This document shows, piece by piece, positions 1,890 to 16,113 of a stretch of DNA of 64,000 nucleotides (within the stretch, counting starts at the first letter, position 1; every line of letters begins with the position of its first letter). The DNA lies in the NCBI GenBank assembly GCA_003554965.1, contig PWHR01000041.1:78378-142377 (forward strand), read 5' to 3'. The translations under genes and the position numbers were made by a program. The notes beneath the pieces are model-generated. The model saw only the letters and a list, made by a program, of their open reading frames with translations. It was not told where the DNA came from and searched no databases. This DNA is from Thermoplasmata archaeon (GTDB taxonomy: Archaea > Thermoplasmatota > Thermoplasmata > Halarchaeoplasmatales > Halarchaeoplasmataceae).

Positions 1890-3137
1890 ATGTTTGGCGG
1901 CCCGATGGAGCTGACGATAGAAGAAAATAAAGGAGACTCTTTCCTTATAAACGAGGAAACCGCTTCTGAGCATTCGATAGAGGATGATGATGTTCTCTTG
2001 GGAAAAAACTCTATGAACCAGAAAGCGATCGCTGGACACGCTGAAACTTGTGACGAAATAGATAAGGAAAAGATAGGGATGCCCAGAGAAAAGTTCGAGT
2101 CTATCGGATTGGATTGTGATTTCAAAATCGAGATCCAAAAGTATAAAGAGGATCTAGTGAGCGTAAAAGAGGTCGATTTTGGTTTCGTAGATCGAAGCAG
2201 TTCAAGCGAAGATCCTCTTTCAACCGTGAAAGAGAATGAAAAGGAATTTCTGAACTTCATAAAAGAAAAGGTTTTTACTAAAAATTCTAAATTTTTTTGG
2301 AATACTCATCAACTACTAGTCTCTATAAAAAGTACCTATCCAAAACTTGGTGTGGATCAAGTAGGTGATTTCACAGACATAGAAGAATGTAATTACGCTT
2401 GGGGAGGAGGTGAACTAAAATCCTTCGACGGAGTACTATTGATCGATATGTCCGGAAGTATGGAGACCGAAGATCTAAAGATGGAAGACATAGAGTGGAT
2501 CGTTGAAAGGATAAACAGCGGTATTCAAGGTAAGATGACCTCTGGATTTTTAAGAAACCTTAAAGATAGGATGAAAATCAAAAGATCTGAAGGTGCAGCT
2601 TTCTGTGCTTTGATGTACCTTGTCCAGAAGATAGGTCGAGGTGTTGGAGATAATATTTCCATAGTACCTTTCAGTAAAGAAGCAAAACCCATTAGATTCA
2701 AAGATCAAAAATTCTTTTCTTCAAAGATCGGATCCACCAGGGAAGCTGCAGAAAACATAATCGAAACCATAAATTATTTTCCAAGAGGACAGACAAATAT
2801 ATCTGGAGCTCTTGATCAAACGATAGAGGTCATGAAAGAGTTTAACAGGGATAAGATGAAGATGATAGTGATTTTAACGGACGGAGAACCCAATCCTTCA
2901 TCTATAGACGATAGTGATAGTGTTAAGAAACTCGTAAATGAAAGGATCGCACCTAGAAGTGATGTTATCATAAACACGATAGGACTAGGAGATGAAGTGG
3001 ATCATCATCTTTTGGAAGAGATCGCCTCTGTAACGGGAGGGGAATACACTTACGTGAACAGTTTGGAAGGCCTTACACAGGCTTATTCAAGATATGCAAC
3101 AAACATCTCAATCAAAGGTACCGTGTTGCCTGACTGA
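1890..3137 (+). CDS. Cdc48N-like double-psi barrel + von Willebrand factor A protein
   Basis: This is a 415-residue soluble protein. Residues 7-100 follow the plan of the Cdc48/VAT N-terminal double-psi beta-barrel: an IEDDDVLLG segment, a hydrophobic strand, then an IGMPREKFESIGLDCD segment in place of the usual IRIDxxxRxNAGVxxGD, then a VKEVDFG strand. Residues 178-400 form a vWA domain with a complete MIDAS: D186-x-S188-x-S190, the Thr in GQTNISGAL, and the Asp in LTDGEP. It is therefore likely a metal-dependent protein-binding adaptor. The start may be the ATG at 1905, because a TATA-like AT-rich element (1867-1880) lies about 25 nt upstream of it, as expected for a leaderless mRNA. At 1890 the ggagg motif is only 3 nt away. 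The gene converges on the GCS2-like ligase with a 16-bp gap. The Cdc48N assignment is by eye; vWA is clear. Confidence 0.85.
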   Translation: MFGGPMELTIEENKGDSFLINEETASEHSIEDDDVLLGKNSMNQKAIAGHAETCDEIDKEKIGMPREKFESIGLDCDFKIEIQKYKEDLVSVKEVDFGFVDRSSSSEDPLSTVKENEKEFLNFIKEKVFTKNSKFFWNTHQLLVSIKSTYPKLGVDQVGDFTDIEECNYAWGGGELKSFDGVLLIDMSGSMETEDLKMEDIEWIVERINSGIQGKMTSGFLRNLKDRMKIKRSEGAAFCALMYLVQKIGRGVGDNISIVPFSKEAKPIRFKDQKFFSSKIGSTREAAENIIETINYFPRGQTNISGALDQTIEVMKEFNRDKMKMIVILTDGEPNPSSIDDSDSVKKLVNERIAPRSDVIINTIGLGDEVDHHLLEEIASVTGGEYTYVNSLEGLTQAYSRYATNISIKGTVLPD

Positions 3138-3153
3138 ATACTCCAATATATCT

Positions 3154-5430
3154 TCAAAGCCCTTCAAAATCGGTGATCTTTATATCACCAATATCTATCG
3201 ATTCAAACCATAGATCGGATCTTTTGTTTTGTGCTGCTTCAACCGATAATGACCTCAAGGTTTTCAGAAAACTTTCAAAATCTGAGGCTTCCTTCTTGTA
3301 GAGTATCAATTGGGAAGGTGAAATGGGTGGTGCAAGAGGAAGGTCATCATCCTTTTTCAAGCTGAAGACTCTAAAAAAGATATTGTTCAAAAAAGGTGTA
3401 TCAATGAGCCCCATCTCCTCGAAATAAGGGATTAAATTCTTTAAGATATTTTGCCAATCCTCATATATGTATTTTGATCCTCTATCAGCCAGTGATCTTA
3501 AGCATTCCGTTCTTTCTTCCCCAACACACACTCTACCTAGCAGGCCGTCTTCGATACTATTCTGCCTGTTCTTCTTAAGCACATCTGTCGGAAGAGGAGA
3601 AGATGACTTAGATATTTTTTTTCCCTTTTCAAATTTATCTTTAGTATAAAGAGCTATAGCTTGAAGGATGATCGCTAAAGAGATCCTATCTAAAGTAGTG
3701 ATCTGTGTATCGAACACCCTAATTTCGATCGTATCGTATCGCGTAAATGGATAAACATCTATCATCCGAAGAGACTCGTCTCTCCTTCCTAGCTTTTGTT
3801 CTAGGTAATGTTTTCCATCAGATCCTGATGATGGAAGTGGAGGAGGCGCTTTGAACTGTTCTTTATTCCTCTTTAATCGCATATTTGGCGAAGGATGTGT
3901 TATTACTAGATTCCCCCAATCATTGAAAGTATAATCTGGTTTTTTGCCATCTATAAAAGGAGAGTTCGATGAAATAGCTATCAGATGTGGAATCAATTCA
4001 CGATAGATATTGTATATCTCCGTCTTTAACTCATTGTTTTTGATTCCAAGATGATGGTGTTCACCGAAGGAAAGACCCTCGGAGTATTTTTCGACTGGGT
4101 TGGTGCCGACTGGGATCACATCAGCATCGATTTTTAGGTCCCTAACCACTTCTTTTATGATCCGATAAAGATGGTATGCCCACCACTCGAGTTCTTCTAG
4201 ATATTCGCAGGGAGGAGTCTGTATCTCAAGGATATTGGTTTCAAAAGTAACGTGAGAATCTTTTCCTAGAATAGAGTAATACCGATCATTATTATCTACT
4301 GAATACTTTATATGTACAGCCTCATATCCTCTGTCATCCTCCTGTATAAAAACATCGTCCTTCCACTTCCTTTGAATAAATTTTTTAGCGCTGTTCTTCA
4401 GTTCTGAAATCTTTTTCCTAGCATCGTCTAAAATCTCTTCAAATATGATCGACATCTGACTTCCTTCCAGCCATCGCCAATCCTTCCTTACTACCTGGAG
4501 TTCTATCTCTATTCCATGAGTAAATGGAAGTCGATTATGTTTTAGTGTTTTGTCACGATAAAGAGATAAAGACTCTTTCTCGATCTTTTTGTAGTCTTCA
4601 ACTCCTGTATCATCGATCATAAAATAGTGATCAGATACCTGGTTATCCTCCTCGATAAGAAATTGGTAATATCCTCCTTTATGGAATGTATTCTTCACCC
4701 CTAACTTGTCTAAGTCCACTCCACAGTTCAAGTTGATCCATTTTTTTGCTTTTAGAATCTTGTTTTTTCTATTTTCATCTATAGAAGGTGTAGAAATAAC
4801 TCGATATCGTTTTTCTTCTTTTAGATATACTCTTCTATATTCATCCACATATAACATCGGAGTAGTGCTTACTTCATCATAGTTTTTATCCTTAAAATCA
4901 ACCTTCCAACTTTCTTTTCTATCACAAATATCTCTTTTGTCCTTTTCTATCTCCCTTCTAGAAACAAATTTATAGTCTATCTCCCTATACTTGAGTATTT
5001 TATTCTTTTCTTGGATAAAAAATACGCCCACTAACCTTCCGTCTGTCATATTAGCTTTCTTTAAACCTATACTTTTTGCCTTAGGATATTCAATATTTAA
5101 TCCTTTTACAACCTTATCCAAAGGTTCGCCGATGCTGTTGAATTTTTCTACTCTTACCTCTTTTTTACTTGGCTCGTCGGGTGGAAGAGGTGGAGGATTA
5201 ATTTTTCGATCTAAATCGTCTTTTTGATCATCATTAATCAGCTTAAGTACGATCAAGAACAGAAGGATTCCCACTATCAGTGCTATCAAAATTAAATATG
5301 GGGTCATAGAGATGAGAAACATGCCTACGATAAAATAAGAAAATACCGATTTATCACGAGTTGTACTTTCTGATACTTTTCTATCTCTCAAATTCTCACT
5401 CTTACCTATTTTTTCCTTCTTAATCCGCAA
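3154..5430 (-). CDS. Membrane-anchored GCS2-type carboxylate-amine ligase with PepSY-like modules
   Basis: This is a 758-residue protein. The basic N-terminus is followed by a long hydrophobic stretch (about 29-65) broken by TP, probably a helical hairpin that leaves the rest in the cytoplasm. A PPPLPP linker (79-84) follows. Residues 95-285 look like repeated PepSY-like alpha/beta modules; the last (222-285) resembles the C-terminal part of both ubiquitin-like proteins next door. Residues 304-600 carry hallmarks of the glutamate-cysteine ligase 2/carboxylate-amine ligase fold: HGIEIELQ, GEHHHLGI, SSNSPFIDG and DTIEIRVFD. The family joins a carboxylate to an amine using ATP. A second PPPLP motif lies at 529-533, inside the catalytic region. 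The C-terminal 150 residues are helical and unrecognised. The start is TTG at 5430 or possibly TTG at 5391; no ATG precedes the membrane segment. The substrate is unknown. A stand-alone gamma-glutamyl ligase role seems unlikely given the added domains. Confidence 0.82.
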   Translation of the reverse strand: MRIKKEKIGKSENLRDRKVSESTTRDKSVFSYFIVGMFLISMTPYLILIALIVGILLFLIVLKLINDDQKDDLDRKINPPPLPPDEPSKKEVRVEKFNSIGEPLDKVVKGLNIEYPKAKSIGLKKANMTDGRLVGVFFIQEKNKILKYREIDYKFVSRREIEKDKRDICDRKESWKVDFKDKNYDEVSTTPMLYVDEYRRVYLKEEKRYRVISTPSIDENRKNKILKAKKWINLNCGVDLDKLGVKNTFHKGGYYQFLIEEDNQVSDHYFMIDDTGVEDYKKIEKESLSLYRDKTLKHNRLPFTHGIEIELQVVRKDWRWLEGSQMSIIFEEILDDARKKISELKNSAKKFIQRKWKDDVFIQEDDRGYEAVHIKYSVDNNDRYYSILGKDSHVTFETNILEIQTPPCEYLEELEWWAYHLYRIIKEVVRDLKIDADVIPVGTNPVEKYSEGLSFGEHHHLGIKNNELKTEIYNIYRELIPHLIAISSNSPFIDGKKPDYTFNDWGNLVITHPSPNMRLKRNKEQFKAPPPLPSSGSDGKHYLEQKLGRRDESLRMIDVYPFTRYDTIEIRVFDTQITTLDRISLAIILQAIALYTKDKFEKGKKISKSSSPLPTDVLKKNRQNSIEDGLLGRVCVGEERTECLRSLADRGSKYIYEDWQNILKNLIPYFEEMGLIDTPFLNNIFFRVFSLKKDDDLPLAPPISPSQLILYKKEASDFESFLKTLRSLSVEAAQNKRSDLWFESIDIGDIKITDFEGL

Positions 5431-5459
5431 AGTATTTTAATTTTATCATAATCACCGGT
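5431..5459. promoter_or_regulatory. Compact divergent promoter between ligase and ubiquitin-like operon
   Basis: Only 29 bp separate the outermost possible starts of the divergent genes. The sequence GTATTTTAATTTTATCATAA is TATA-like on both strands. Because a TATA box needs about 25 nt before transcription starts, the true starts are probably internal: ATG 5493 or 5508 for the plus-strand gene and TTG 5391 for the ligase. A shared core region would couple the two transcription units. Confidence 0.45.
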
Positions 5460-6020
5460 ATGCTATTCGATCCGGTATCGAAAAGTATTGAGATGGAAGA
5501 GAAAATCATGGTAGCGATAGTGACGATCCTAAATTCAGATAAGGAAGAAAGTATACATATGACTCTAGAACCAGAAGAAACCTTCAAGGAGATCAAGGAG
5601 AAATGTGAGGACTATTGGCTTCTTGATGATAATCCTAAAAAAGGAGAATATATTCTTGTGAAAGGGAATCGAATTTTAAATCCCGAGGAATTAGTGATCT
5701 CATTTGGAATACAAGACGGAGACGTTCTAAAATTCGTTAGATCTAGTGAGTTTAACAGTAAAGAACAAGTAGAAAAATATGAGGAAGGATTAAAATTAGA
5801 TAAAACTAATTTAATTGAGGTGTGCGAGGAGTGGTTAAAGAAAAACATCGGATTAAAACCCGAAAAACTTGAGGTTGTCGACAAGGACGATCCTGAAAAT
5901 GAAAGATATAGGGAACTAACTTTGGTCTTCAAAAAAACAGATACGGATGAATTTTTTACTTTAGAAATCAAGGATGGAAAGGTGAAAAATTACATGCCTG
6001 TAAGATACAAACAGGATTGA
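5460..6020 (+). CDS. Ubiquitin-like beta-grasp + PepSY-like protein (paralogue 1)
   Basis: This is a 186-residue, acidic, soluble protein. From Met17 the sequence runs in register with ubiquitin: strand, turn, the IHMTLEPEET strand (compare ITLEVEPSDT), the helix FKEIKEKCED, a LVKGNRIL strand, then ISFGIQDGDVLKFV (compare LSDYNIQKESTLHLVL). A helical linker leads to a second module (about 115-182) with helix EEWLKKNIGL followed by strands. That part resembles a PepSY-like fold and the matching region of the next gene and of the ligase. There is no terminal Gly-Gly; the protein ends in RYKQD. The start at 5460 is the longest choice. ATG 5493 or 5508 fits better with the promoter position, and 5508 aligns with Met1 of ubiquitin. 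The fold call rests on pattern matching by eye. Confidence 0.72.
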   Translation: MLFDPVSKSIEMEEKIMVAIVTILNSDKEESIHMTLEPEETFKEIKEKCEDYWLLDDNPKKGEYILVKGNRILNPEELVISFGIQDGDVLKFVRSSEFNSKEQVEKYEEGLKLDKTNLIEVCEEWLKKNIGLKPEKLEVVDKDDPENERYRELTLVFKKTDTDEFFTLEIKDGKVKNYMPVRYKQD

Positions 6021-6024
6021 TAAT

Positions 6025-6534
6025 GTGGGAAAGAAAATCTTTATGAGGGATCAGAATATAAAAAAAACTGCAGTCATCTATCCTGAGTTTGGTAATAAAA
6101 ATTCTATAAAAAAAATAAAAAGAAGTTTGAAAAACTTTTGGGGATACGAAAATCCCGAAAAACTATGTCTTTTTTATCAGGATGTAGAATTGACTGAAGG
6201 ATATTCTTTAGATACATATGGTATTGAAGAGTTCGATCTTTTGGTTTTGACCCATGAAGATGATCCCGGGTTGAATTCTAATGGAGGAAAAGAGACAAAA
6301 GACCGGGAGATTATTTTAAAATCCAAAGAATGGCTGGATAAAAATATAGGTGTCGAGACCCAGAATATAGAGTTGACTGAGTTCTCACGCTCTGGGAACG
6401 ATGAGAAAAAGGTTATATTTGAGGATAGAGAGGGCAAATCAATCTTCAAATTGTCTTTTTTTGATAACAAGATAAAAGAATATGAGTATGATGTACTCGA
6501 AAAGGATGTAAAGAAGGAGGAATCTTATAGGTGA
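6025..6534 (+). CDS. Ubiquitin-like beta-grasp + PepSY-like protein (paralogue 2)
   Basis: This 169-residue protein is a paralogue of the preceding gene. The segment NSIKKIKRSLKNFWGYENP aligns with TFKEIKEKCEDYWLLDDNP, and LDTYGIEEFDLLVLTHED aligns with ISFGIQDGDVLKFVRSSE. Both end the beta-grasp with the ubiquitin-type last helix-turn-strand. A short linker containing a Gly-Gly pair (residues 87-88) follows. Then comes a PepSY-like module, about 93-160, with KEWLDKNIGV and a KLSFFDNKIKEYEYDV strand pair. The start is GTG at 6025: agga lies 8 nt upstream, and it is 4 nt after the previous stop. An internal ATG at 6043 is the alternative. It is part of a three-gene operon with the amidohydrolase. 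Confidence 0.7.
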   Translation: MGKKIFMRDQNIKKTAVIYPEFGNKNSIKKIKRSLKNFWGYENPEKLCLFYQDVELTEGYSLDTYGIEEFDLLVLTHEDDPGLNSNGGKETKDREIILKSKEWLDKNIGVETQNIELTEFSRSGNDEKKVIFEDREGKSIFKLSFFDNKIKEYEYDVLEKDVKKEESYR

Positions 6535-6538
6535 AAAT

Positions 6539-7660
6539 ATGCTTCGCATTATCGATAATGAGACAAATACGGGAAGGATCTTTTTTGTAAATGACTCACA
6601 CCATCATATAGGGGAAGAGGTCGATGGAAATGAAAACGTTCCTATCGGGGAAAATGGAAGTTATGATTTTTCAAAACGATTGGAAGAAGATATAAAAGAG
6701 AGTTTTAAAAACTGTGCAAATTCAAGATATGAGCCCCCTCCAGAAAACCTCATAATAGAGAGGAATGGTTCTGGTACAGCAAGAGATGATCATCCCCATG
6801 GTATCTTCGATCAGATAGTTGTTTTTCCGATGAAGGATAAATTTAGAGATGAGGGTGAAGTCACCTTTTCTAGGTCCAATAAAAACATCTCTCGATGGGT
6901 CAACGCCGATTACCATAGGAGAAGGTTGATAGGATTTGGAAGAGTAGACCCAGGAGATATAGAAGGAGCTAGGAAAGAGATCAAAAAATTCCCTAACAAG
7001 TACGGTTTGACAGGTTTGAAAATACATCCGGATTCAGAAAGGTTCAAATTGGGTTCAAATGAAGTAATACAACTCTACGTCGACTGTGCTAGGATGGGAT
7101 TGCCGATAATATTCCATACCGGGTATCCCTCAGACGTTAAGGATATACACGAGGGGGTAAACAAAACCATCTCACTCCTGGTTGAAAATGGAATGGAAGA
7201 GCTGGTGAGTCAATTGAACGTCATCATCGGACACTGCAGTTATGAGGAAGAAGAAGTGTTTAGATATCTGAGCCATCCTTGTATATACGGAGAGATGTCA
7301 ACGCTCAGTCAAGGAGAGAGCTTCCTAAATTCGGCTAGAAAAAATATCAGGCTGTCCGATTTTACGAATAATACGTTAAATTATTTCAAAAAGGATGTAA
7401 GAGAAACTCTAAAAGATAAATTTTGGAAGATCTTCCAGGTGAATAGTCACTGGTCAAGCAAAATCATGATAGGAACCGATCATCCCTTTTTGCCCAAAGA
7501 CAACATAACTAAATTATTTAATGCGATTTTTTGCTCTGATATTTCATCAGATCTGGATCCGTGGAGCATACAGAATATACTCGGGAATAACTTAGTAAAT
7601 TTACTCACTCCTAATGTCGGTGTACATGTATCAACGTTCCAATCAGATCATAGTAATTAG
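6539..7660 (+). CDS. Metal-dependent amidohydrolase-superfamily TIM-barrel protein
   Basis: This is a 373-residue protein with metal-ligand positions of the amidohydrolase superfamily (amidohydrolase_2 type): DSHHHIG near the N-terminus (H21-x-H23), GLKIHP, IFHTGYPS (His after strand 5), IIGHCSY (His after strand 6) and IGTDHPF (Asp after strand 8). The family hydrolyses amides, lactones or esters, and some members are decarboxylases. The ATG has a good aggtg Shine-Dalgarno 5 nt upstream that overlaps the stop of the upstream ubiquitin-like gene, so translation is likely coupled. In this context an amide- or isopeptide-cleaving role opposite the ligase is an attractive inference but is not shown. 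The region between the HxH and GLKIHP is longer than usual. It converges with the giant surface protein gene, 8 bp apart. Confidence 0.8.
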   Translation: MLRIIDNETNTGRIFFVNDSHHHIGEEVDGNENVPIGENGSYDFSKRLEEDIKESFKNCANSRYEPPPENLIIERNGSGTARDDHPHGIFDQIVVFPMKDKFRDEGEVTFSRSNKNISRWVNADYHRRRLIGFGRVDPGDIEGARKEIKKFPNKYGLTGLKIHPDSERFKLGSNEVIQLYVDCARMGLPIIFHTGYPSDVKDIHEGVNKTISLLVENGMEELVSQLNVIIGHCSYEEEEVFRYLSHPCIYGEMSTLSQGESFLNSARKNIRLSDFTNNTLNYFKKDVRETLKDKFWKIFQVNSHWSSKIMIGTDHPFLPKDNITKLFNAIFCSDISSDLDPWSIQNILGNNLVNLLTPNVGVHVSTFQSDHSN

Positions 7661-7668
7661 TGGAGTTC

Positions 7669-10600
7669 TTATGGACCTGATAGGTCTATCTCTTCCTTCT
7701 CCTCTTCCGACAAATCGTACATCGACTCATCCTGCTCTGACTCTTCTACTTCATAGAATTCATCTTCATCGAATTCTTCTTCTGTTTCAGTATCTATCTC
7801 CTCATAGCTTTCAGTAGATCCTTTAGAGATGAACATCAAGGCTAGAGCTATTATAATGATAAATACTATACCTATGAGTATGAAAACCATCGGTACACTC
7901 AAAAATCCTTCCTCTTTCTCCTCAACCGTCAATTTCATACTCTCATCCGCATCCTCTATAACTAGATTGTACTCATCCGCATCCTCTATAGTATGAGTGA
8001 CTGTTATAGTCTCGGCTTTACCGGGCTCTATCTCTAACGAATCACTATCTATAGTTTCACCGTCGAGAGTGATCTCTGCTGTATACTCGCCTTCAACTTC
8101 GCCTTTATTTTCCACTTCCACCTCGATCTCGAACTCTTCATACTCTTCAGGCTCTTCCGGATCTATTTCGATACTCAAAACTTCGAACTCAGGTTCTTCT
8201 AGTTGCCCCCCGACCGTCACTAAAACGGCGTCGGAAGTCTCCTGTTCATAAGACGCCTTCACTTCATACTCACCGGGCTGTTCTTCTTCAAATGTACCTT
8301 CTTCTGAAGCATTTGACCATGTGAATTCTCCATCATCATCCGAGATCAAATTCTCGTACTCGTCGTAAGCCTCGGCTGAGAACTCTATCGATCCTCCTAC
8401 TGTTACATTTTGATCCTCTTCAGGCTCTATCTCCACTGTAGATACCTCCGACGGCTCTACTGTCACTATCGTTAGTTCAGATCCAACATCCTCGTATTCT
8501 GCTGTAACTTGGTACTCTCCCGCTTCCGTCTCTTCAAAGGTGCCTAAGGAGGCGTTCTGCCAAGTGAAATCTTTCAAATCGTCAGTTATCAGATTACCAT
8601 ACTCGTCAGATGACTCTGCATTGAACTCTATCGGCTCTCCAGCCTCTACCGTCTCCCCTTCCTCGGTTATCTCTACCGTGTCTACACCTGATGGTTCGAC
8701 CTCGATCGTGATCGTATCAGATTCAATCTCTCCATGAGAAGCTTTCACTTCGTGATCCCCTGCTTCGGTTTCATCGAAAACACCATCGTCAGCCCCAGTC
8801 CAATCAAAATCTGTTTCATCGTCCGTGACGGTGTTGCCATACTCGTCTGAAGCTTCCGCATCTATATCCACTGTTTTACCCGCTTCTATGGTTTTATATT
8901 CCGAGTCGATCTCTATATCAACGGAATCAACATCTGTTGGCTCGACTTTCAGGGTAGCGGTGTCCTCCATTCCTTCATACCCCCCAGTTATATTCCATTC
9001 TCCTGCAGTATAAGGTGTTATCTCGTTATCATTCCAACTAGCGTCATCGATGTCATCGTCCCACTCGACATCATCCGTTACATCATCTCTCTCATTACGA
9101 TATTCGTCGTAAGCGGTAGCGTTAAACTCTTGTGCTTCACCAGCCTCAACCACTGGATCTGTTGGCTCGACTTCGATGTGATCTGTATCAGCTGTTTTGA
9201 CGGTGAATTTCGTCGTCTCCGCGTCATCATCTTCTTCAACATTATCATCAGACCTGTCTATCGAGAATTCTAGTTTGTAATCGTCATCGGCCTCTTCGAT
9301 TATCAGTTCATCAAAAGTAGCTAAACCATCCTCTTCTGTTTCTACCTCAGTTGTACTATAATCTGTTAAATCTCCTGCACCATCTATCGCCTCAACACTT
9401 ACTTCAACATCTTTCACCGTATTATTTTCATCATCCGTTACGAGAGCCTTTGGGTAATCTCCATCGTTACCTGTAAGGGTCTGGCCAGCACGTGTATCTT
9501 TGGGTTCTGTTTCCACTTTTACCGAGGTAGCATCACCTGGCTGGACTTCGACCTTCCCGGTAAAATTATCATCTCCCTCTGCATCTACAGTTACATTATA
9601 GGTTCCGAGTTCGGTTTCAGAATGGATGAAAGTGATCTTATCTGATTCCCCATAAGATAGGTCATCAATCGTTTTTGTTTCTTCCCGTTTTTCATCGATT
9701 TCAAAGGTTAATTCTACGGTTTCATCCACATTACCTGTATTTTTGACATAACCTTTTACCTCAAAATCCTCTCCTGCATCCACGTGATCAGGAACTATAT
9801 CCCAATCGATCAACTCAAAGTCAGTTTCTGCTTCCACTGGATTCTCATCCCAGCTCAGGAACGGATAATCCCATCCATCAACGATGTTCCAAGGCTCAGA
9901 ATCGTCCACCTCTTCTGCTTCAACTCGGGCTATATCCCAAGGATGATCGAGATCTGTATCTGTATAGGTCGAATAACTATACATCTCAGTAGTGTTTTTA
10001 GGTATACCGTCTCCTCCGCACTCTTTTTGGTCCGTTGTTTCATTGTCGAAAAAGGAATCTATCTCATTACCATTCATGATGTCTGATTCCCCTACTAATC
10101 CACCTACCTTCGTTTCTCCTTCTACTTCTCCTATTGCGTACGAGTTCTCTATTGTATCGCTATTACTGCCCGCTAATCCGCCTACATTCTCTGATTCATC
10201 TGATTCACCCGTCACATTTACCTCTGCATGCGACTCTGTTATTTTACCGTCATTCTCTCCTACTAATCCACCTACTTCCGTCTCTCCTTCTACTTCTCCT
10301 TTCGCAGACGAGTCCTCTATTGTATCGCTATTACTACCTACTAGTCCTCCTACATTCTCTGATTCACCTGTCACATTTACCTCTGCATGCGACTCTGTTA
10401 TTTTACCGTCATTCTCTCCTACTAATCCACCTACTTCCGTCTCTCCTTCTACTTCTCCTATTGCATACGAGTTCTCTATTGTTTCGCTATTACTGCCCGC
10501 TAATCCGCCTACATTCTCTGATTCATCTGATTCACCTGTCACATTTACCTCTGCATACGACTCTGTTATCGTCCCACCTGTATCTCCTACTAATCCACCT

Positions 10601-11196
10601 ATGTTCGTGTTACCCTTAACATCTCCTGTCGAATATGAATTATTTACGACACCATCAAGTTGTCCCCCTGTCAGTATGCCTACTCGTTCTTTTCCTTCTA
10701 CATTTGCTTCAATAATCATCAGATTGCTGATTTTTGAATCATCAGTAAATCCAAATAATCCTACAAAATCTTTATCTGATCTATTGATGTACAAATCTCT
10801 TATCTGCGAGTTATTACCATCAAAAATTCCTTGAAATTTACTATCACTGTTACCAATCGGTTCCCATCCATTTTCACTTTCATTCACATACTCATCGTAC
10901 CCATCAGTAGTCTCATTCAAGTCAGCATTCAATGTAAAATTCTGATCCAAGTGCTCTCTTACATTGTTCAGATGAGTCCAATTCTCGATCTCGTAGGGTT
11001 CCTCTTCAGTACCCTCTCCTCCAGCAAATTCATCGTCACCATCGATCCTGATCGGGCTGATCTCCTCGTATTCATCTCCCGACTCCCTGAACTCTTCTTC
11101 GACTCCTATCCCATTAGCCTCTACAAAATTTACACTTATTACACTCGCTAGAAGCATTATTGCAATACCGACTATCCATATCTTATGCTTGCTCAT
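7669..11196 (-). CDS. Giant surface protein: GLUG repeats, CARDB/Ig-like repeats, C-terminal TM anchor
   Basis: This is a 1175-residue, very acidic protein. A signal peptide (about 5-27) is followed by a region with GLUG-type repeats (about 130-380; NVGGLVGxN and xxENSYAxGEV units). A CARDB-like domain starts at about 455. Next come five or more Ig-like/invasin-like repeats of about 90 residues with the signature AxDEYGNxxTDD...FxWxxA...GxFxETEAGEYxVxA. A final beta domain, a transmembrane helix (about 1105-1127) and an acidic cytoplasmic tail of about 48 residues complete it. It is probably a cell-surface adhesin or S-layer-associated stalk. The start is the ATG with ggtg 8-9 nt upstream. 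The Ig-like repeat type is shared with the upstream LRR gene, so the two are related by domain shuffling. Confidence 0.85.
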   Translation of the reverse strand: MSKHKIWIVGIAIMLLASVISVNFVEANGIGVEEEFRESGDEYEEISPIRIDGDDEFAGGEGTEEEPYEIENWTHLNNVREHLDQNFTLNADLNETTDGYDEYVNESENGWEPIGNSDSKFQGIFDGNNSQIRDLYINRSDKDFVGLFGFTDDSKISNLMIIEANVEGKERVGILTGGQLDGVVNNSYSTGDVKGNTNIGGLVGDTGGTITESYAEVNVTGESDESENVGGLAGSNSETIENSYAIGEVEGETEVGGLVGENDGKITESHAEVNVTGESENVGGLVGSNSDTIEDSSAKGEVEGETEVGGLVGENDGKITESHAEVNVTGESDESENVGGLAGSNSDTIENSYAIGEVEGETKVGGLVGESDIMNGNEIDSFFDNETTDQKECGGDGIPKNTTEMYSYSTYTDTDLDHPWDIARVEAEEVDDSEPWNIVDGWDYPFLSWDENPVEAETDFELIDWDIVPDHVDAGEDFEVKGYVKNTGNVDETVELTFEIDEKREETKTIDDLSYGESDKITFIHSETELGTYNVTVDAEGDDNFTGKVEVQPGDATSVKVETEPKDTRAGQTLTGNDGDYPKALVTDDENNTVKDVEVSVEAIDGAGDLTDYSTTEVETEEDGLATFDELIIEEADDDYKLEFSIDRSDDNVEEDDDAETTKFTVKTADTDHIEVEPTDPVVEAGEAQEFNATAYDEYRNERDDVTDDVEWDDDIDDASWNDNEITPYTAGEWNITGGYEGMEDTATLKVEPTDVDSVDIEIDSEYKTIEAGKTVDIDAEASDEYGNTVTDDETDFDWTGADDGVFDETEAGDHEVKASHGEIESDTITIEVEPSGVDTVEITEEGETVEAGEPIEFNAESSDEYGNLITDDLKDFTWQNASLGTFEETEAGEYQVTAEYEDVGSELTIVTVEPSEVSTVEIEPEEDQNVTVGGSIEFSAEAYDEYENLISDDDGEFTWSNASEEGTFEEEQPGEYEVKASYEQETSDAVLVTVGGQLEEPEFEVLSIEIDPEEPEEYEEFEIEVEVENKGEVEGEYTAEITLDGETIDSDSLEIEPGKAETITVTHTIEDADEYNLVIEDADESMKLTVEEKEEGFLSVPMVFILIGIVFIIIIALALMFISKGSTESYEEIDTETEEEFDEDEFYEVEESEQDESMYDLSEEEKEEIDLSGP
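10085..10615 (-). repeat. Near-identical tandem coding repeats (GLUG units)
   Basis: Three copies of a roughly 160-180 bp unit encode NVGGLxGSNSxTIExSxAxGEVEGETxVGGLVGE. They are almost identical at the DNA level; for example ctactaatccacctacttccgt recurs. The high nucleotide identity points to recent duplication or gene conversion inside the surface protein. Confidence 0.8.
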
Positions 11197-11394: not shown

Positions 11395-14300
11395 TCACTC
11401 ACCTGTCCATTCGTAAATGTTTTCGCCCTCTCTCTGAGGATACAGTATCACCTTTTCCTCTCTGATCAGTTTTTCTAGATTCTCCTCTAATTCACATTCT
11501 TCGAACTCGACGTCTCTTTCATCTCTCAGATGCTCGTAGGCTTTACCCTTAGTCGTCCGACCTAACTGCCGGATGACATCCGATACAACCTCCTGCTGAC
11601 TTAGGTCGGCCTGCCAAGAGGAAGTAAATGACTCAGAAGCGGGTGGTTGCGGGGAAGCCGGAGGATGAACTTGATCCTCGGGATAAGGGCCTTTTTGGGA
11701 GCCCGATGTTTCGCTGAACCCTTTACTCTTCAGGACTACTAATACAACTATTATGATGACTGCGATGATAACCGCCAGCAATATGTAAAAAAGAATTCCA
11801 CTACCGAAGAATCCATCTTCTTCTACCTCCTCTATCTCCAACCTGTAGAGGCGTTCAGTTGTAAGGTTGCGAGAGTCATCTTCTATCTCACAAACTATTA
11901 CATGATCTCCCGGTTCTAAATCTGGTTCATAGGTACGATTCCTCTCTAATTCCCCACCATCTTTGTACCAGGTCACCGTGATATTGTCTTTTCTACTTTC
12001 ATCCACATCTATATCAAGAAGAGGTGAGTCCTCATCTTCACTCCATTCTTTCTCTTCAGCACTAGTATCTATCAGGTCTGCGGTGACGTTGAATTCTAGT
12101 ATGTGCTCCTGTTCGACCTCATCATGACCGATTATATTGAAGTAAACTGTCTCTCCATCCTCGAATTCATAGGTGATATTGTTCTTTTCAAACTCTGCTA
12201 ATTTTCCTTCCATCTCATCCTCGGAAGATCCTATCCAAATCTCGTAATACTCCAAAACTTTACCACCTTTATTTGTCCACTCTAATTCATATTCCAAATT
12301 ATCCTCAAAGATTATGGTCTCGATACCAGTATATTCCAGTTCCGCCTCATCTCTGTCATAATATACCGTTGTATTGTATACTTCTGACCTTATCTCTTCC
12401 TCCGTAAGGAATCGTACGAAAATGGTTTGAAAGCCGTGGGTATCTTCGAGCTCGATGGTCAATTCGTCAGAATATTCATATCGCTCTTTTTCACCGCTTG
12501 TCAAGTTATCCTTAAAGCCAACATCTAATTCTTTTGTCCACTCACAGGCACTCAAATCTAGGGTGACATTCCTACTCTCAGTGATTTCAGGAGACGTGAT
12601 AGAACCTTCCGGTTGAACATTGACTATGACTTCAGAAGAATCTACGCCCTCGTATTCAACTATCACCTCATACGTTCGCGGCTCATCCTTTTCAAAGACT
12701 CCTGTGTTATCCGCTCCGGTCCATTCGAAATCCATTGGATCATCAGTTATCAAGTTTTCAAATCCATCCAAGGCCTCCGCTGTGAATTCTAGCCTCTCAT
12801 CTATAGATATGTTTTTTATCCCCTCAGGATCGGTAGAAACTCTCTCAACTTGACATGGTTCGACAGTCATCTCAGTTTGATCCTTTTCTATCCCTTGAGC
12901 CGAAACCGAGATAGCGTGATCGCCGGCCTGAGTTAATACATCTTTTTCGATGAACAACTTATATGCGCCCTCATCATCAAGTGTTACTGAGTCTTCCTTC
13001 AGCAATCCACTAGATAAGTCCGTCTCAACGGAGAGATCGGTTAATTCTTTTTCCGGTGTCAGGTATCCATACTCATTGTATGATTCAACAACAATTGAGA
13101 ATGGTTCTCCAGCATTGATCTGATCCGGTATATCTTCTATCTCGAGATAGGCCGGTTCGAGCGCTTCGATCTCGAACGACTTTTCATCCCAATCATCTTC
13201 ACTGCTCACGTTAACCATATGGGGACCTACATCACCTATCTCCGAATTCCAAAAAAACGTAGAGCTATTTTTTCCCTCAGCTTCAACGGTCAGATCTTCG
13301 GTCTGTGTATGGACCTGCTCATCATCCTCACCGATTATCTTGAGTTCGATCTCCTGCGTCTTTTCGATTTCACCGAGATTGTCTACTTCATACTCAACGA
13401 AAAATTCTTCACCTTCAAATATCTCTCCAGCATGGTCAGTTATATCTAGCTCAAAGAACGCATCCTCTAAGACCGTTAAGTTGACCTTGGCTGAACTGTT
13501 CTGACTAGCTATTTCGATCTCATATTCACCGGGTTTGTATCCATTGGTACGCCATGTGAATTCTTCTTTCTCTCCTGGTCCTAGCTTAATCTCTTCGTTA
13601 TCTTCTACTTTGCCGTTAATAGTGACATTTATCGGCTGTTCTCCCTCAACGGAACCTGTATTTTTGATAATGTACTCGATCTCTAACTCATCACCCTCAA
13701 TTATTTTTTCATCGTATTCTTCAACCTCAACGGAAAAAAATTCAGGATGATCTATGTGAACATGCCAACCTTCGTCTTGTAGAATATCTCTGTTTTCTCT
13801 ACCAGCAGAAGATGGGACCGAGTTGTTCCTAAGATCTACTTCAGCTTTTACTCTATCTTCTAATTCAAGGCTTTCATTGAGGTCATCAAGAATATCATCC
13901 ACATCTTCCGCGGATAAGTCGTTGTAAGATAGATTTAAAATGTGACCAGCATTCATATCACCAAGATCAGATTGGTTGGAGAACGCACTTTCCCCATAAC
14001 CATCAAAATTATTTCCCTGTAGTTCTAATACTTCCACCTCTGTAAGATCAGAGAATCCATGGGGAATCTCTCCGGATAAATTATTATCAGACAGTCTAAG
14101 TCCTTCTAGATTCTCGAGTTCAGTGAGTTCTAATGGAAGTTCACTTTTTACATGACCATCGCTCCAATCTATCTCTAAAACGTCGGTGTACTCTTCTATC
14201 TCCACTCTAAACTTTTTCGTATCGATATCCTCATGGTCACTCCAATCGAATTCTACATCATTGGTCTCAGTAGACTCCAATACCATTCCATCCCCGTAGA

Positions 14301-16113
14301 ACACCCATCTTGCGGTCTTGTTTTCCTCCACCACTATATCCAGATCAAGCTCGTCCTTTCCATACTCGAACGTGCCGAAGTCGACATACTCTGATTCTTC
14401 AAAGAATGCTGTAACCTCTTGATCATCATCCATTATGATGGTTGTCTCAGCTTTTTCAGGTTCTTCTACTTCACCTTCCCACTCATCAAACACCCATCTA
14501 TCCGTTGATTCTGCTTCTAGAGCCACTTCTTCACCATCGACGAACACTTCCGTGTATGGATATTCCTCCACCAAATCGCTATCGACGTACACCTCACCTT
14601 CTCCTCCATCTCCTACAGGTTCATCAACTGTTAACTCGAACTCCTCTAAAAACGTTGCCTGAGCTGTCTTATTTTCGTCCATCTCGACAGTGATCTCTTC
14701 CTCTTCATAGGTCTCGTCATCAACGGTCCACTCATCGAGCCCCCACCCTTCTTCAGGTACCGCCTCTATCGTTACTTCGGTTCCTTCCGATAATTTCCCT
14801 GTCCATCCATCTTCAACCTCTTGACCCATGATGTTTACCGATCCTCCGTCTCCGTAGTAGATAGTAAGTTCGTACTCGTCTTCATCAGGCACTACATCCA
14901 AATCCCAGTCCACTGCTTCAAGGATGAACACGTCTTCCCAGCCATCAACGGAGGGCTCGGAGTTGTCTGTGAGGTCTACTTCAGCAGGAACCCTATCTTC
15001 CAGATCTAAGCTTTTCACAAGATCAGAAAGGACGGAATCCACGTCTTCGGTTGTGAACTCGTTGTTAGATAGATCTAATATATCCCAATCTTCTTCTAAA
15101 TCTCCTAGATAAGGTTGAGTAGAAAACGCTCCTTCTCCATAACTATCTAAGCTATTGTCCTGTAATTTGACCCTTTCAAGTCCGGTGAGATCTGAAAATT
15201 CTGACGGGATTTCACCCGACAGATTGTTGCGGTAAAGGAATAACCGTTCAAGGTTCTCCAGGTTGCCCAGCTCCGCAGGGATATCGCCTGAAAGATCGTT
15301 ACTGCCTAGCCTTAGAGATTCTAGGTTGGTCAGGTCACCCAGATCTGCCGGGATATCGCCCGACAGATCGTTATATTCTGGATATAACCGTGTAAGGTTG
15401 GTCAGGTTGCCCAGATCCGCCGGGATATCGCCCGACAGATCGTTACCGCGTAGGTTTAGATCTTCAAGGTTGGTCAGGTCGCCCAGCTCCGCCGGGATCT
15501 CGCCCGACAGATCGTTTCTGTTCAAGTATAACCTTTCAAGGTTTTCCAGTTCGCCCAGGTCCGACGGGATATCGCCTGACAGATCGTTTAAGCCTAAGCG
15601 AAAAGATTCAAGATTCGTCAGGCCGCCCAGATCCGCCGGGATCTCGCCCGACAGATCGTTTAAGCCTAAGTTAAGATATTCAAGGTCCGTCAGGTCGCCC
15701 AGATCCGCCGGGATATCGCCGGTCAAATCATCATCCGGCCAATGGATTTGGAAAACGTTCCCGTAATCTTCGATTTCCACTCTGAACTCTCTCAAATCAT
15801 AATCACCGTGCCTGCGCCAGTTAAAATACACGTCGTTCCCCTCTATATCCTCCAATTCCGTTCCATCACCGTAGAATACCCACCTAGCGGTCTCTCCTTC
15901 TTCCATACCTATATCCAGATCTAACTCGTCCTCTCCATACTCAAACGTACCGAAGTCTACTCTATCATCGCTGACCTGCTCTACCGATCCGGAATCTTCT
16001 TCAGCCTCCATCCGCTCCTGGCCTTCAGCGTGACCAACAGCCATACCAAAAATACTCACAACGAGCAGCATCACAACAAAACCAGTAAAGACCATTCTTA
16101 CTCTCTTATCCAT
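11395..16113 (-). CDS. Giant LRR/InlB-like surface receptor with C-terminal TM and cytoplasmic winged-helix-like tail
   Basis: This is a 1572-residue protein. A signal peptide (about 8-28) precedes a first module with an acidic beta domain (DFGTFEYGxDELDLD) and eight or so 24-residue leucine-rich repeats (LTNLExLxLxxNDLSGEIPADLG). InlB B-repeat-like domains (the GWGLDEWTVD type) follow at about 400-560. A second, shorter copy of the DFGTFEYG-LRR module comes next, at about 570-790. CARDB-like and Ig-like domains fill the rest to a transmembrane helix at about 1435-1460. A Pro/Ser-rich linker then leads to about 70 residues that look like a winged helix (QQEVVSDVIRQLGRTT...LEKLIREEKVILY). With the signal peptide outside and one C-terminal helix, this tail should be cytoplasmic. 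A good ggagg Shine-Dalgarno precedes the ATG by 7 nt. Confidence 0.85.
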   Translation of the reverse strand: MDKRVRMVFTGFVVMLLVVSIFGMAVGHAEGQERMEAEEDSGSVEQVSDDRVDFGTFEYGEDELDLDIGMEEGETARWVFYGDGTELEDIEGNDVYFNWRRHGDYDLREFRVEIEDYGNVFQIHWPDDDLTGDIPADLGDLTDLEYLNLGLNDLSGEIPADLGGLTNLESFRLGLNDLSGDIPSDLGELENLERLYLNRNDLSGEIPAELGDLTNLEDLNLRGNDLSGDIPADLGNLTNLTRLYPEYNDLSGDIPADLGDLTNLESLRLGSNDLSGDIPAELGNLENLERLFLYRNNLSGEIPSEFSDLTGLERVKLQDNSLDSYGEGAFSTQPYLGDLEEDWDILDLSNNEFTTEDVDSVLSDLVKSLDLEDRVPAEVDLTDNSEPSVDGWEDVFILEAVDWDLDVVPDEDEYELTIYYGDGGSVNIMGQEVEDGWTGKLSEGTEVTIEAVPEEGWGLDEWTVDDETYEEEEITVEMDENKTAQATFLEEFELTVDEPVGDGGEGEVYVDSDLVEEYPYTEVFVDGEEVALEAESTDRWVFDEWEGEVEEPEKAETTIIMDDDQEVTAFFEESEYVDFGTFEYGKDELDLDIVVEENKTARWVFYGDGMVLESTETNDVEFDWSDHEDIDTKKFRVEIEEYTDVLEIDWSDGHVKSELPLELTELENLEGLRLSDNNLSGEIPHGFSDLTEVEVLELQGNNFDGYGESAFSNQSDLGDMNAGHILNLSYNDLSAEDVDDILDDLNESLELEDRVKAEVDLRNNSVPSSAGRENRDILQDEGWHVHIDHPEFFSVEVEEYDEKIIEGDELEIEYIIKNTGSVEGEQPINVTINGKVEDNEEIKLGPGEKEEFTWRTNGYKPGEYEIEIASQNSSAKVNLTVLEDAFFELDITDHAGEIFEGEEFFVEYEVDNLGEIEKTQEIELKIIGEDDEQVHTQTEDLTVEAEGKNSSTFFWNSEIGDVGPHMVNVSSEDDWDEKSFEIEALEPAYLEIEDIPDQINAGEPFSIVVESYNEYGYLTPEKELTDLSVETDLSSGLLKEDSVTLDDEGAYKLFIEKDVLTQAGDHAISVSAQGIEKDQTEMTVEPCQVERVSTDPEGIKNISIDERLEFTAEALDGFENLITDDPMDFEWTGADNTGVFEKDEPRTYEVIVEYEGVDSSEVIVNVQPEGSITSPEITESRNVTLDLSACEWTKELDVGFKDNLTSGEKERYEYSDELTIELEDTHGFQTIFVRFLTEEEIRSEVYNTTVYYDRDEAELEYTGIETIIFEDNLEYELEWTNKGGKVLEYYEIWIGSSEDEMEGKLAEFEKNNITYEFEDGETVYFNIIGHDEVEQEHILEFNVTADLIDTSAEEKEWSEDEDSPLLDIDVDESRKDNITVTWYKDGGELERNRTYEPDLEPGDHVIVCEIEDDSRNLTTERLYRLEIEEVEEDGFFGSGILFYILLAVIIAVIIIVVLVVLKSKGFSETSGSQKGPYPEDQVHPPASPQPPASESFTSSWQADLSQQEVVSDVIRQLGRTTKGKAYEHLRDERDVEFEECELEENLEKLIREEKVILYPQREGENIYEWTGE
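15190..15735 (-). repeat. Tandem 72-bp leucine-rich coding repeats
   Basis: The 72-bp units encode LxxLxLxxNDLSGxIPADLGxLTN. Seven to eight tandem copies recur with near-identical DNA (for example gccgggatatcgcccgacagatcgtt). This local region is more GC-rich than the rest of the window, which may reflect repeat homogenisation or import of the LRR block. Confidence 0.85.

Follow-up and report, generated by a model that had tools for sequence, protein, structure and literature searches.

A cluster of five genes from an archaeon of the class Thermoplasmata may encode a module that writes and erases an amide bond, with a vWA protein and two ubiquitin-like proteins as adaptors through which a target protein is reached. 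We favour this explanation tentatively and consider it possible rather than probable. The cluster lies at positions 1890-7660 of the window, by which we mean the whole stretch of 64,000 nucleotides that was analysed (GenBank assembly GCA_003554965.1, contig PWHR01000041.1; G000:C22:78378-142377 in our internal labels, where G000 and the like stand for genomes, f1 and the like for families and L018 and the like for loci, and G000 is the genome of the window). It consists of the vWA protein, a GCS2/YbdK-type carboxylate-amine ligase, two paralogous ubiquitin-like proteins (Ubl1 and Ubl2) and an amidohydrolase (AH). The genome has 2.33 Mb, the genus of the window belongs to family f1, and the closest named relative of the window is a contig of Thermoplasmata archaeon B1Sed10_20.

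Conservation and co-occurrence of the five genes

In an earlier note, made from the DNA alone, these genes were described as a compact set and a candidate ubiquitin-like conjugation or peptide-ligation system. The five open reading frames (ORFs) were confirmed at their positions, and the layout stood. The genes for the vWA protein (1890..3137, plus strand) and the ligase (3154..5430, minus strand) are convergent, with a 16-bp gap. The ligase gene is divergent from Ubl1 (5460..6020, plus strand), which is followed in series by Ubl2 (6025..6534, plus strand) and AH (6539..7660, plus strand) with gaps of 4 bp.

Conservation was examined by profile searches within Thermoplasmatota, with 300 Thermoplasmata genomes, all of them drafts or metagenome-assembled genomes (MAGs), as the sample of the class. 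G001 and G002 have the five genes in identical order, as does G003 up to the end of its contig. GCS2 and AH genes are also adjacent, either overlapping or no more than about 10 bp apart, in f4, f15 and f22 (L064), which are distant families. In f15 the pair is directly followed by the gene of a vWA protein whose N-terminal domain is the same; in f4 the vWA gene lies away from the pair but is present in 4 of the 5 genomes. Our results showed that the cluster is conserved far beyond chance.

The co-occurrence check also came out in favour of a conserved module. Among the 300 genomes, GCS2/AH was detected in 12 and the vWA protein in 12, with both in 10, GCS2/AH alone in 2, vWA alone in 2 and neither in 286. 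The association is significant by genome (Fisher 3e-15) and by genus (3e-5); these counts are not phylogenetically independent, and three separate lineages (f1, f4 and f15) hold both. The GCS2, AH and vWA proteins split alike, with f1 and f22/f11 (branch B) on one side and f4 and f15 (branch A) on the other, and the ligase is kept beside an AH with an intact metal site in four lineages. Matches of the AH profile in f9 and in other f1 genomes (1e-11 to 1e-13) covered short stretches and were treated as general amidohydrolases. A phylum-wide GCS2 search in a draw of 390 genomes, seemingly without f4 or f15 genomes, returned the genome of the window alone, and the module is therefore rare. In f15, two ZPR1-like zinc-finger paralogues and a NOG1-like GTPase accompany the GCS2-AH-vWA trio (L018 13381-14254, L019 12686-13614).

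Active sites and domains of the ligase, the amidohydrolase and the vWA protein

The ligase has 758 aa and a TTG start. It matches Pfam GCS2 at 7e-7 (29.3 bits, cut-off 21) and the NCBIfam YbdK family at 7.5e-15. Its scores stay below the cut-offs of the curated GCS2 families (TIGR02050, PRK13515-13518), the best being 55 bits against 176.4, and the glutamate-cysteine ligase model PRK13518 gave 23.5 against a cut-off of 395. By these scores the protein is a member of the GCS2/YbdK superfamily that falls outside every curated family, and the known glutamate-cysteine ligase families were rejected as its identity. In the AlphaFold model the best Foldseek matches were YbdK structures (1tt4/1r8g, 1e-11), followed by glutamine synthetases and the depupylase Dop. 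The catalytic domain (3157..4536, minus strand) carries the GhExE signature as GIEIE. Alignment with YbdK shows residues E308, E310, E402, H458, H460, E569, R571 and D574 intact, and they are conserved in nine relatives. Since the GhExE and histidine residues are intact, we infer that the ligase is probably catalytically active.

A hydrophobic segment near the N-terminus (residues ~47-65; 5236..5292, minus strand) is predicted to span the membrane. Its Kyte-Doolittle value is 3.28 over 19 residues from residue 47, and helices were modelled at residues 29-40 and 44-67. The membrane anchor claimed earlier was supported in 3 of the 4 genus members by a very hydrophobic segment (3.3-3.5), but the segment is weak in the ligase of G003 (1.7) and absent in f4 and f15.

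AH scores above the cut-off of Pfam Amidohydro_2 (9.3e-9). Its metal site of HxH, Lys, His, His and Asp (H21, H23, K161, H193, H232 and D314) is intact and invariant across nine relatives. The vWA protein has 415 aa, with a vWA domain at ~2421-3089 (Pfam 3e-13) whose metal-ion-dependent adhesion site (MIDAS; DxSxS and a second Asp, that is D186, S188, S190 and D331) is kept in ten relatives. Thus the catalytic residues of GCS2, the metal ligands of AH and the MIDAS of vWA are all invariant among the relatives compared. The earlier note had paired a ligase that makes amides with a hydrolase that breaks them, and we found the two to be a conserved pair with intact active sites and a co-occurring vWA protein. 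It had also assigned a Cdc48N-like domain to this vWA protein. The Cdc48N-like identity of the N-terminal region (~1890-2189, a putative double-psi barrel) is plausible but weaker, with Pfam CDC48_N at ~0.1, under its cut-off, and an hhalign match of 79% probability to 17 genuine Cdc48 N-domains of these genomes that covers the whole domain in register.

Ubiquitin-like proteins and the WL domain

Both small proteins match the Pfam ubiquitin family under its cut-off (8e-4 for Ubl1, 6e-3 for Ubl2), and a profile of the Ubl family with its relatives matched PDB chains of single-domain ubiquitin at about 1e-6. In the AlphaFold model of Ubl1, the Ubl domain has a predicted local distance difference test (pLDDT) score of ~73-94 and runs strand-strand-helix-strand-helix-strand at residues 19-94. 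Foldseek matched this beta-grasp to NEDD8, ubiquitin, SUMO and Caldiarchaeum ubiquitin, with a TM-score of ~0.7-0.8 by target length. These results indicate that Ubl1, as modelled, has a ubiquitin fold. The domain lies at ~5514-5741 in Ubl1 and, by alignment, at ~6025-6252 in its paralogue Ubl2.

In both proteins the beta-grasp is followed by a second folded domain, which we named the WL domain after its motif AKxWLxxNIGV (~5802-6002 in Ubl1, ~6301-6495 in Ubl2). In the Ubl1 model it consists of a helix and four strands at residues 115-181. No Pfam family matched it, and PepSY, with which the earlier note had compared these proteins, was rejected as its identity; the ubiquitin-like half of that description held. 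The hidden Markov model (HMM) of the Ubl family also matched the N-terminal half of the ligase, at 2.5e-10 in G003 and 1e-4 in the window, and positions 77-155 of the Ubl-WL profile matched the G003 ligase at 1.3e-8. In the window the matching ligase region (residues ~219-284; 4579..4776, minus strand) is likewise modelled as a helix and four strands. By sequence, then, the WL domain is common to the Ubls and the ligase of this genus.

Full-length Ubl-WL proteins were found in 7 of the 300 genomes (G000, G001, G002, G003, G029, G061 and G105), all among the 14 that hold GCS2/AH or vWA (Fisher 8e-11). In G029 the Ubl, WL and vWA domains follow each other within one protein whose vWA belongs to branch B, and this fusion points to an adaptor or scaffold role. 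Genome co-occurrence, the shared WL domain and the G029 fusion tie Ubl, WL, vWA and ligase together. No Ubl-WL gene adjoins the distant GCS2-AH loci, nor does one lie beside these genes in 7 of the 12 GCS2-AH genomes, those outside or beyond the pattern of the genus. Because these loci have no adjoining Ubl-WL gene, the ligase and AH do not depend on the Ubl.

The C-termini of the Ubl-WL proteins are not conserved among 12 aligned relatives (YKQD, EESYR, KV, GR, KM, VE, EG, KR, LQS, PLR and RPL). Neither Gly-Gly nor a conserved Glu/Gln end as in Pup was seen in these proteins, and a Pup-like tail was rejected.

Contrast with the ubiquitin operons of the class

Several other Thermoplasmata families possess operons for E1, Ubl, E2 and a JAB protease (L095, L096, L152, L154, L155, L157 and L158). 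Their E1 proteins match ThiF at 1e-44 to 1e-50, and their Ubls have 73-96 residues and end in PDPEGG or in PDPEGG and a few more residues. The Ubl family HMM of the window matches these Ubls at 3e-19 to 1e-8. E1-ubiquitin-E2-JAB operons are thus common in Thermoplasmata, and our literature search found no paper on them. In five genomes of the genus of the window there was no match to E2 (PF00179), which was matched in 67 of 150 Thermoplasmata, and none to the JAB/MPN protease (PF01398). No ThiF-type E1 is present in the cluster; a genome-wide ThiF search in the genus was not made.

Three genomes of the family to which the window belongs (G005, G007 and G014) have a Ubl fused to an E2-like domain that lacks a catalytic cysteine at the usual place. 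The simplest history would be that conjugation was lost in this family and that the Ubl survived as an adaptor. The three fusion genes (L090 6330-7007, L150 4408-5094 and L156 4448-5131) all adjoin a gene for a Cdc48N-like protein of 95-98 aa and Trk-type potassium transport genes. Another arrangement was seen in G039 (L094 2022-3344), where an E1-like ThiF protein whose C-terminal region is long adjoins a 178-aa E2 and a 401-aa JAB protein. It represents a second type of ubiquitin operon, and the corresponding E2 and JAB occur in G029 (L093).

Proposed function and its alternatives

In the explanation that we favour, the ligase would use ATP to phosphorylate a carboxylate and would then join it to an amine. 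The gamma-carboxylate of glutamate is the usual substrate group in the GCS2/YbdK family. AH would hydrolyse this amide or one closely related to it. Non-covalent docking would be the task of the vWA protein, Ubl1 and Ubl2, which would deliver a target protein or peptide to the ligase on the cytoplasmic side of the membrane. UBX domains, which have a ubiquitin fold, are bound by Cdc48 N-domains; by analogy with UBX and Ubl domains on Cdc48/p97, the Ubl domain would probably dock on the Cdc48N-like or vWA protein, while the WL domain, common to Ubl and ligase, would link the two. The Ubl itself would not be conjugated. GCS2-fold enzymes make an amide by phosphorylating a carboxylate and joining it to an amine (PMC2588565), peptides in extended form are bound by vWA-MIDAS domains (PMC7159879), and FluG combines an amidohydrolase and a gamma-glutamyl ligase of the glutamine synthetase (GS) fold in one protein, with essential catalytic residues in both regions (PMC6478659). 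A writer and eraser with protein-targeting adaptors is favoured because the active sites are intact, the ligase is paired with AH, FluG offers a precedent, vWA domains bind peptides and Cdc48 N-domains bind UBX domains.

A more specific version is correspondingly more doubtful. It holds that the membrane GCS2 ligase and AH carry out reversible protein amidation, for example glutamylation, that non-covalent ubiquitin-fold adaptors sit on a Cdc48N-vWA hub, and that in the genus of the window these adaptors are repurposed relics of a lost E1-E2 pathway. If true, this would be a second route that ties the amide-ligase fold ancestral to Pup ligases to ubiquitin-fold proteins, with the ubiquitin domain serving as an adaptor instead of a tag, and it would bear on the uses of ubiquitin domains before or beside conjugation. 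The module is also a compact protein set that can be tested in vitro.

Several observations weigh against the writer-eraser explanation. The structure model of the ligase is of low confidence (pLDDT 65), and the Cdc48N resemblance is weak at the sequence level. The vWA gene of f4 does not adjoin the GCS2-AH pair. The ligases of f4 and f15 are soluble and f4 has no Ubl, so that the core can do without membrane anchor and Ubl. G031 and G061, both about 82% complete, gave no vWA match, and in G074 and G105 there is vWA but no GCS2/AH. All genomes are drafts, and phylogenetically they are not independent of each other. A link to type IV filaments, described below, is confined to 3 of 13 loci, and f4 and G029 are without that filament type.

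The main rival, which we judge rather unlikely and yet serious, is small-molecule metabolism: GCS2 would make, and AH would break, a gamma-glutamyl amine or amino acid (a thiol, polyamine, compatible solute or signal), with vWA and Ubl as regulators. Nearly all characterised GCS2/YbdK enzymes use free amino acids, and the GCS2-AH pairs of f4 and f15 stand without Ubl amid housekeeping genes. Such a role has been proposed for FluG, whose pathway includes a gamma-glutamylated intermediate (PMC6478659). However, the neighbourhoods have no metabolic genes in common, the ligase scores far under every characterised GCS2 equivalog cut-off (55 versus 176 bits at best), and the constant vWA partner together with the fused WL domain and the membrane anchor of one branch suggests docking to a protein. 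That the genes are conserved neighbours without a joint function is improbable. Regulatory reasons can keep neighbours together, but the co-occurrence persists without adjacency in f4, the parts share domains and show domain fusions, and three of the proteins show the same phyletic split.

It is also improbable, if less so than mere neighbourhood, that vWA and Ubl are parts of a type IV filament or secretion machine whose pilin or ATPase is modified by GCS2 and AH. At G000:C28 (L063 1223-11737) a second AH and a third Ubl-WL protein lie beside a filament locus that encodes pilin-like proteins, a TadC-like protein and two ATPases, one GspE-like and one HerA-like; at G105:C32 Ubl-WL and vWA genes flank the same gene set; and at G074:C157 a vWA gene is about 2 kb from the filament ATPase genes. 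vWA proteins are known associates of archaeal type IV pilus (T4P) loci (PMC4858521). But no system gene was present within the stretches read at ten other loci of this filament type in related genomes, and no filament gene adjoins the cluster of the window. The link is real in three genomes and not general, and the filament was rejected as a universal partner. Least probable of all is the E1-independent conjugation suggested earlier, in which GCS2 would join the C-terminus of the Ubl to targets as PafA does with Pup. The Ubl folds agree with it, Foldseek of the ligase also returns Dop, GCS2 is the probable ancestor of PafA, and some Pup ligases are anchored in the membrane (PMC2588565). Against it stand the unconserved tails, the folded WL domain after the Ubl, the fusion of Ubl ahead of vWA and the distant GCS2-AH loci without Ubl, and the conjugable Ubls of this class end in EGG and accompany E1, E2 and JAB. 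On the tails, the domain order and the lack of E2 and JAB matches in the genus, the Ubl as a conjugated tag was rejected. Neither of the two outcomes that the earlier note had named as refuting it, small proteins without a ubiquitin fold or genes that do not co-occur, was seen, and the earlier interpretation as a whole was partly supported.

Comparison with known systems

FluG of Aspergillus (PMC6478659) resembles the cluster in pairing an amidohydrolase with a ligase of the glutamine synthetase fold, the active sites of both enzymes being needed. It differs as a single fused cytosolic polypeptide with a GS-I-type ligase and neither vWA nor Ubl, whereas the window ligase is of the GCS2/YbdK type and partly membrane-bound. 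Compared with YbdK/GCS2 ligases (PDB 1r8g, 1tt4), the window ligase has the same predicted catalytic domain with GhExE and all key residues, but it shares ~16-17% identity in the structural match, lies far under the family cut-off, adds transmembrane and WL domains, and has fixed AH and vWA partners.

Pupylation (PafA, Dop and Pup; PMC2588565) likewise uses a GCS2-derived ligase, sometimes membrane-anchored, and a reversing activity. In contrast, the cluster has neither Pup nor a Glu/Gln tail at a C-terminus, its small proteins fold like ubiquitin, and the eraser is a TIM-barrel amidohydrolase rather than a paralogue of the ligase. The genome of the window has one GCS2-fold gene and so no PafA/Dop-type pair. 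With the archaeal E1-ubiquitin-E2-(RING)-JAB systems, as in Caldiarchaeum (PMC5654768) and in the operons of Thermoplasmata, the cluster shares a Ubl domain, which is homologous to the Thermoplasmata ubiquitin, whereas the genus was without E2 or JAB matches and its Ubls lack a Gly-Gly tail and have the WL domain in addition. MoxR-vWA ternary systems (PMC7159879) and the ArnB/T4P-associated vWA proteins (PMC4858521) offer parallels for a MIDAS vWA as a substrate-binding hub and for vWA near archaeal pili. Neither the cluster nor its relatives have an ORF for MoxR or another AAA+ protein, however, and the vWA protein of the window has a Cdc48N-like domain and an amide ligase and a hydrolase as enzymatic partners.

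A defence system was rejected, as PADLOC matched none of the five proteins, and virus-borne genes were rejected since viral contigs held no relatives of AH or vWA. No description of a set of GCS2, amidohydrolase, Ubl and vWA was found in the literature, most subscription journals being beyond the search, which agrees with what the earlier note had supposed. The gene set is undescribed, rare, real and conserved.

Intergenic region and neighbouring genes

The start of Ubl1 is probably 5508 and not 5460, because homologues begin at Ubl1 Met17. The divergent intergenic region at 5431..5507, with the A+T-rich stretch AGTATTTTAATTTTATCATAAT, is likely to contain the promoters of the ligase gene (minus strand) and of the Ubl1-Ubl2-AH operon (plus strand).

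Beside the cluster, the minus strand encodes secreted proteins of very large size that contain GLUG-like and Ig-like repeats and leucine-rich repeats of the plant type (7669-11196 and 11395-16113). The neighbouring surface protein has a conserved cytoplasmic tail, DEEKDEIDLSGP, which was considered as a genome-wide substrate signal and was rejected, as G000 and G002 have one copy each; it is a mark of the orthologous neighbour only. The tail of the 7669-11196 protein, EEKEEIDLSGP, is common to its counterpart beside the cluster in G002.

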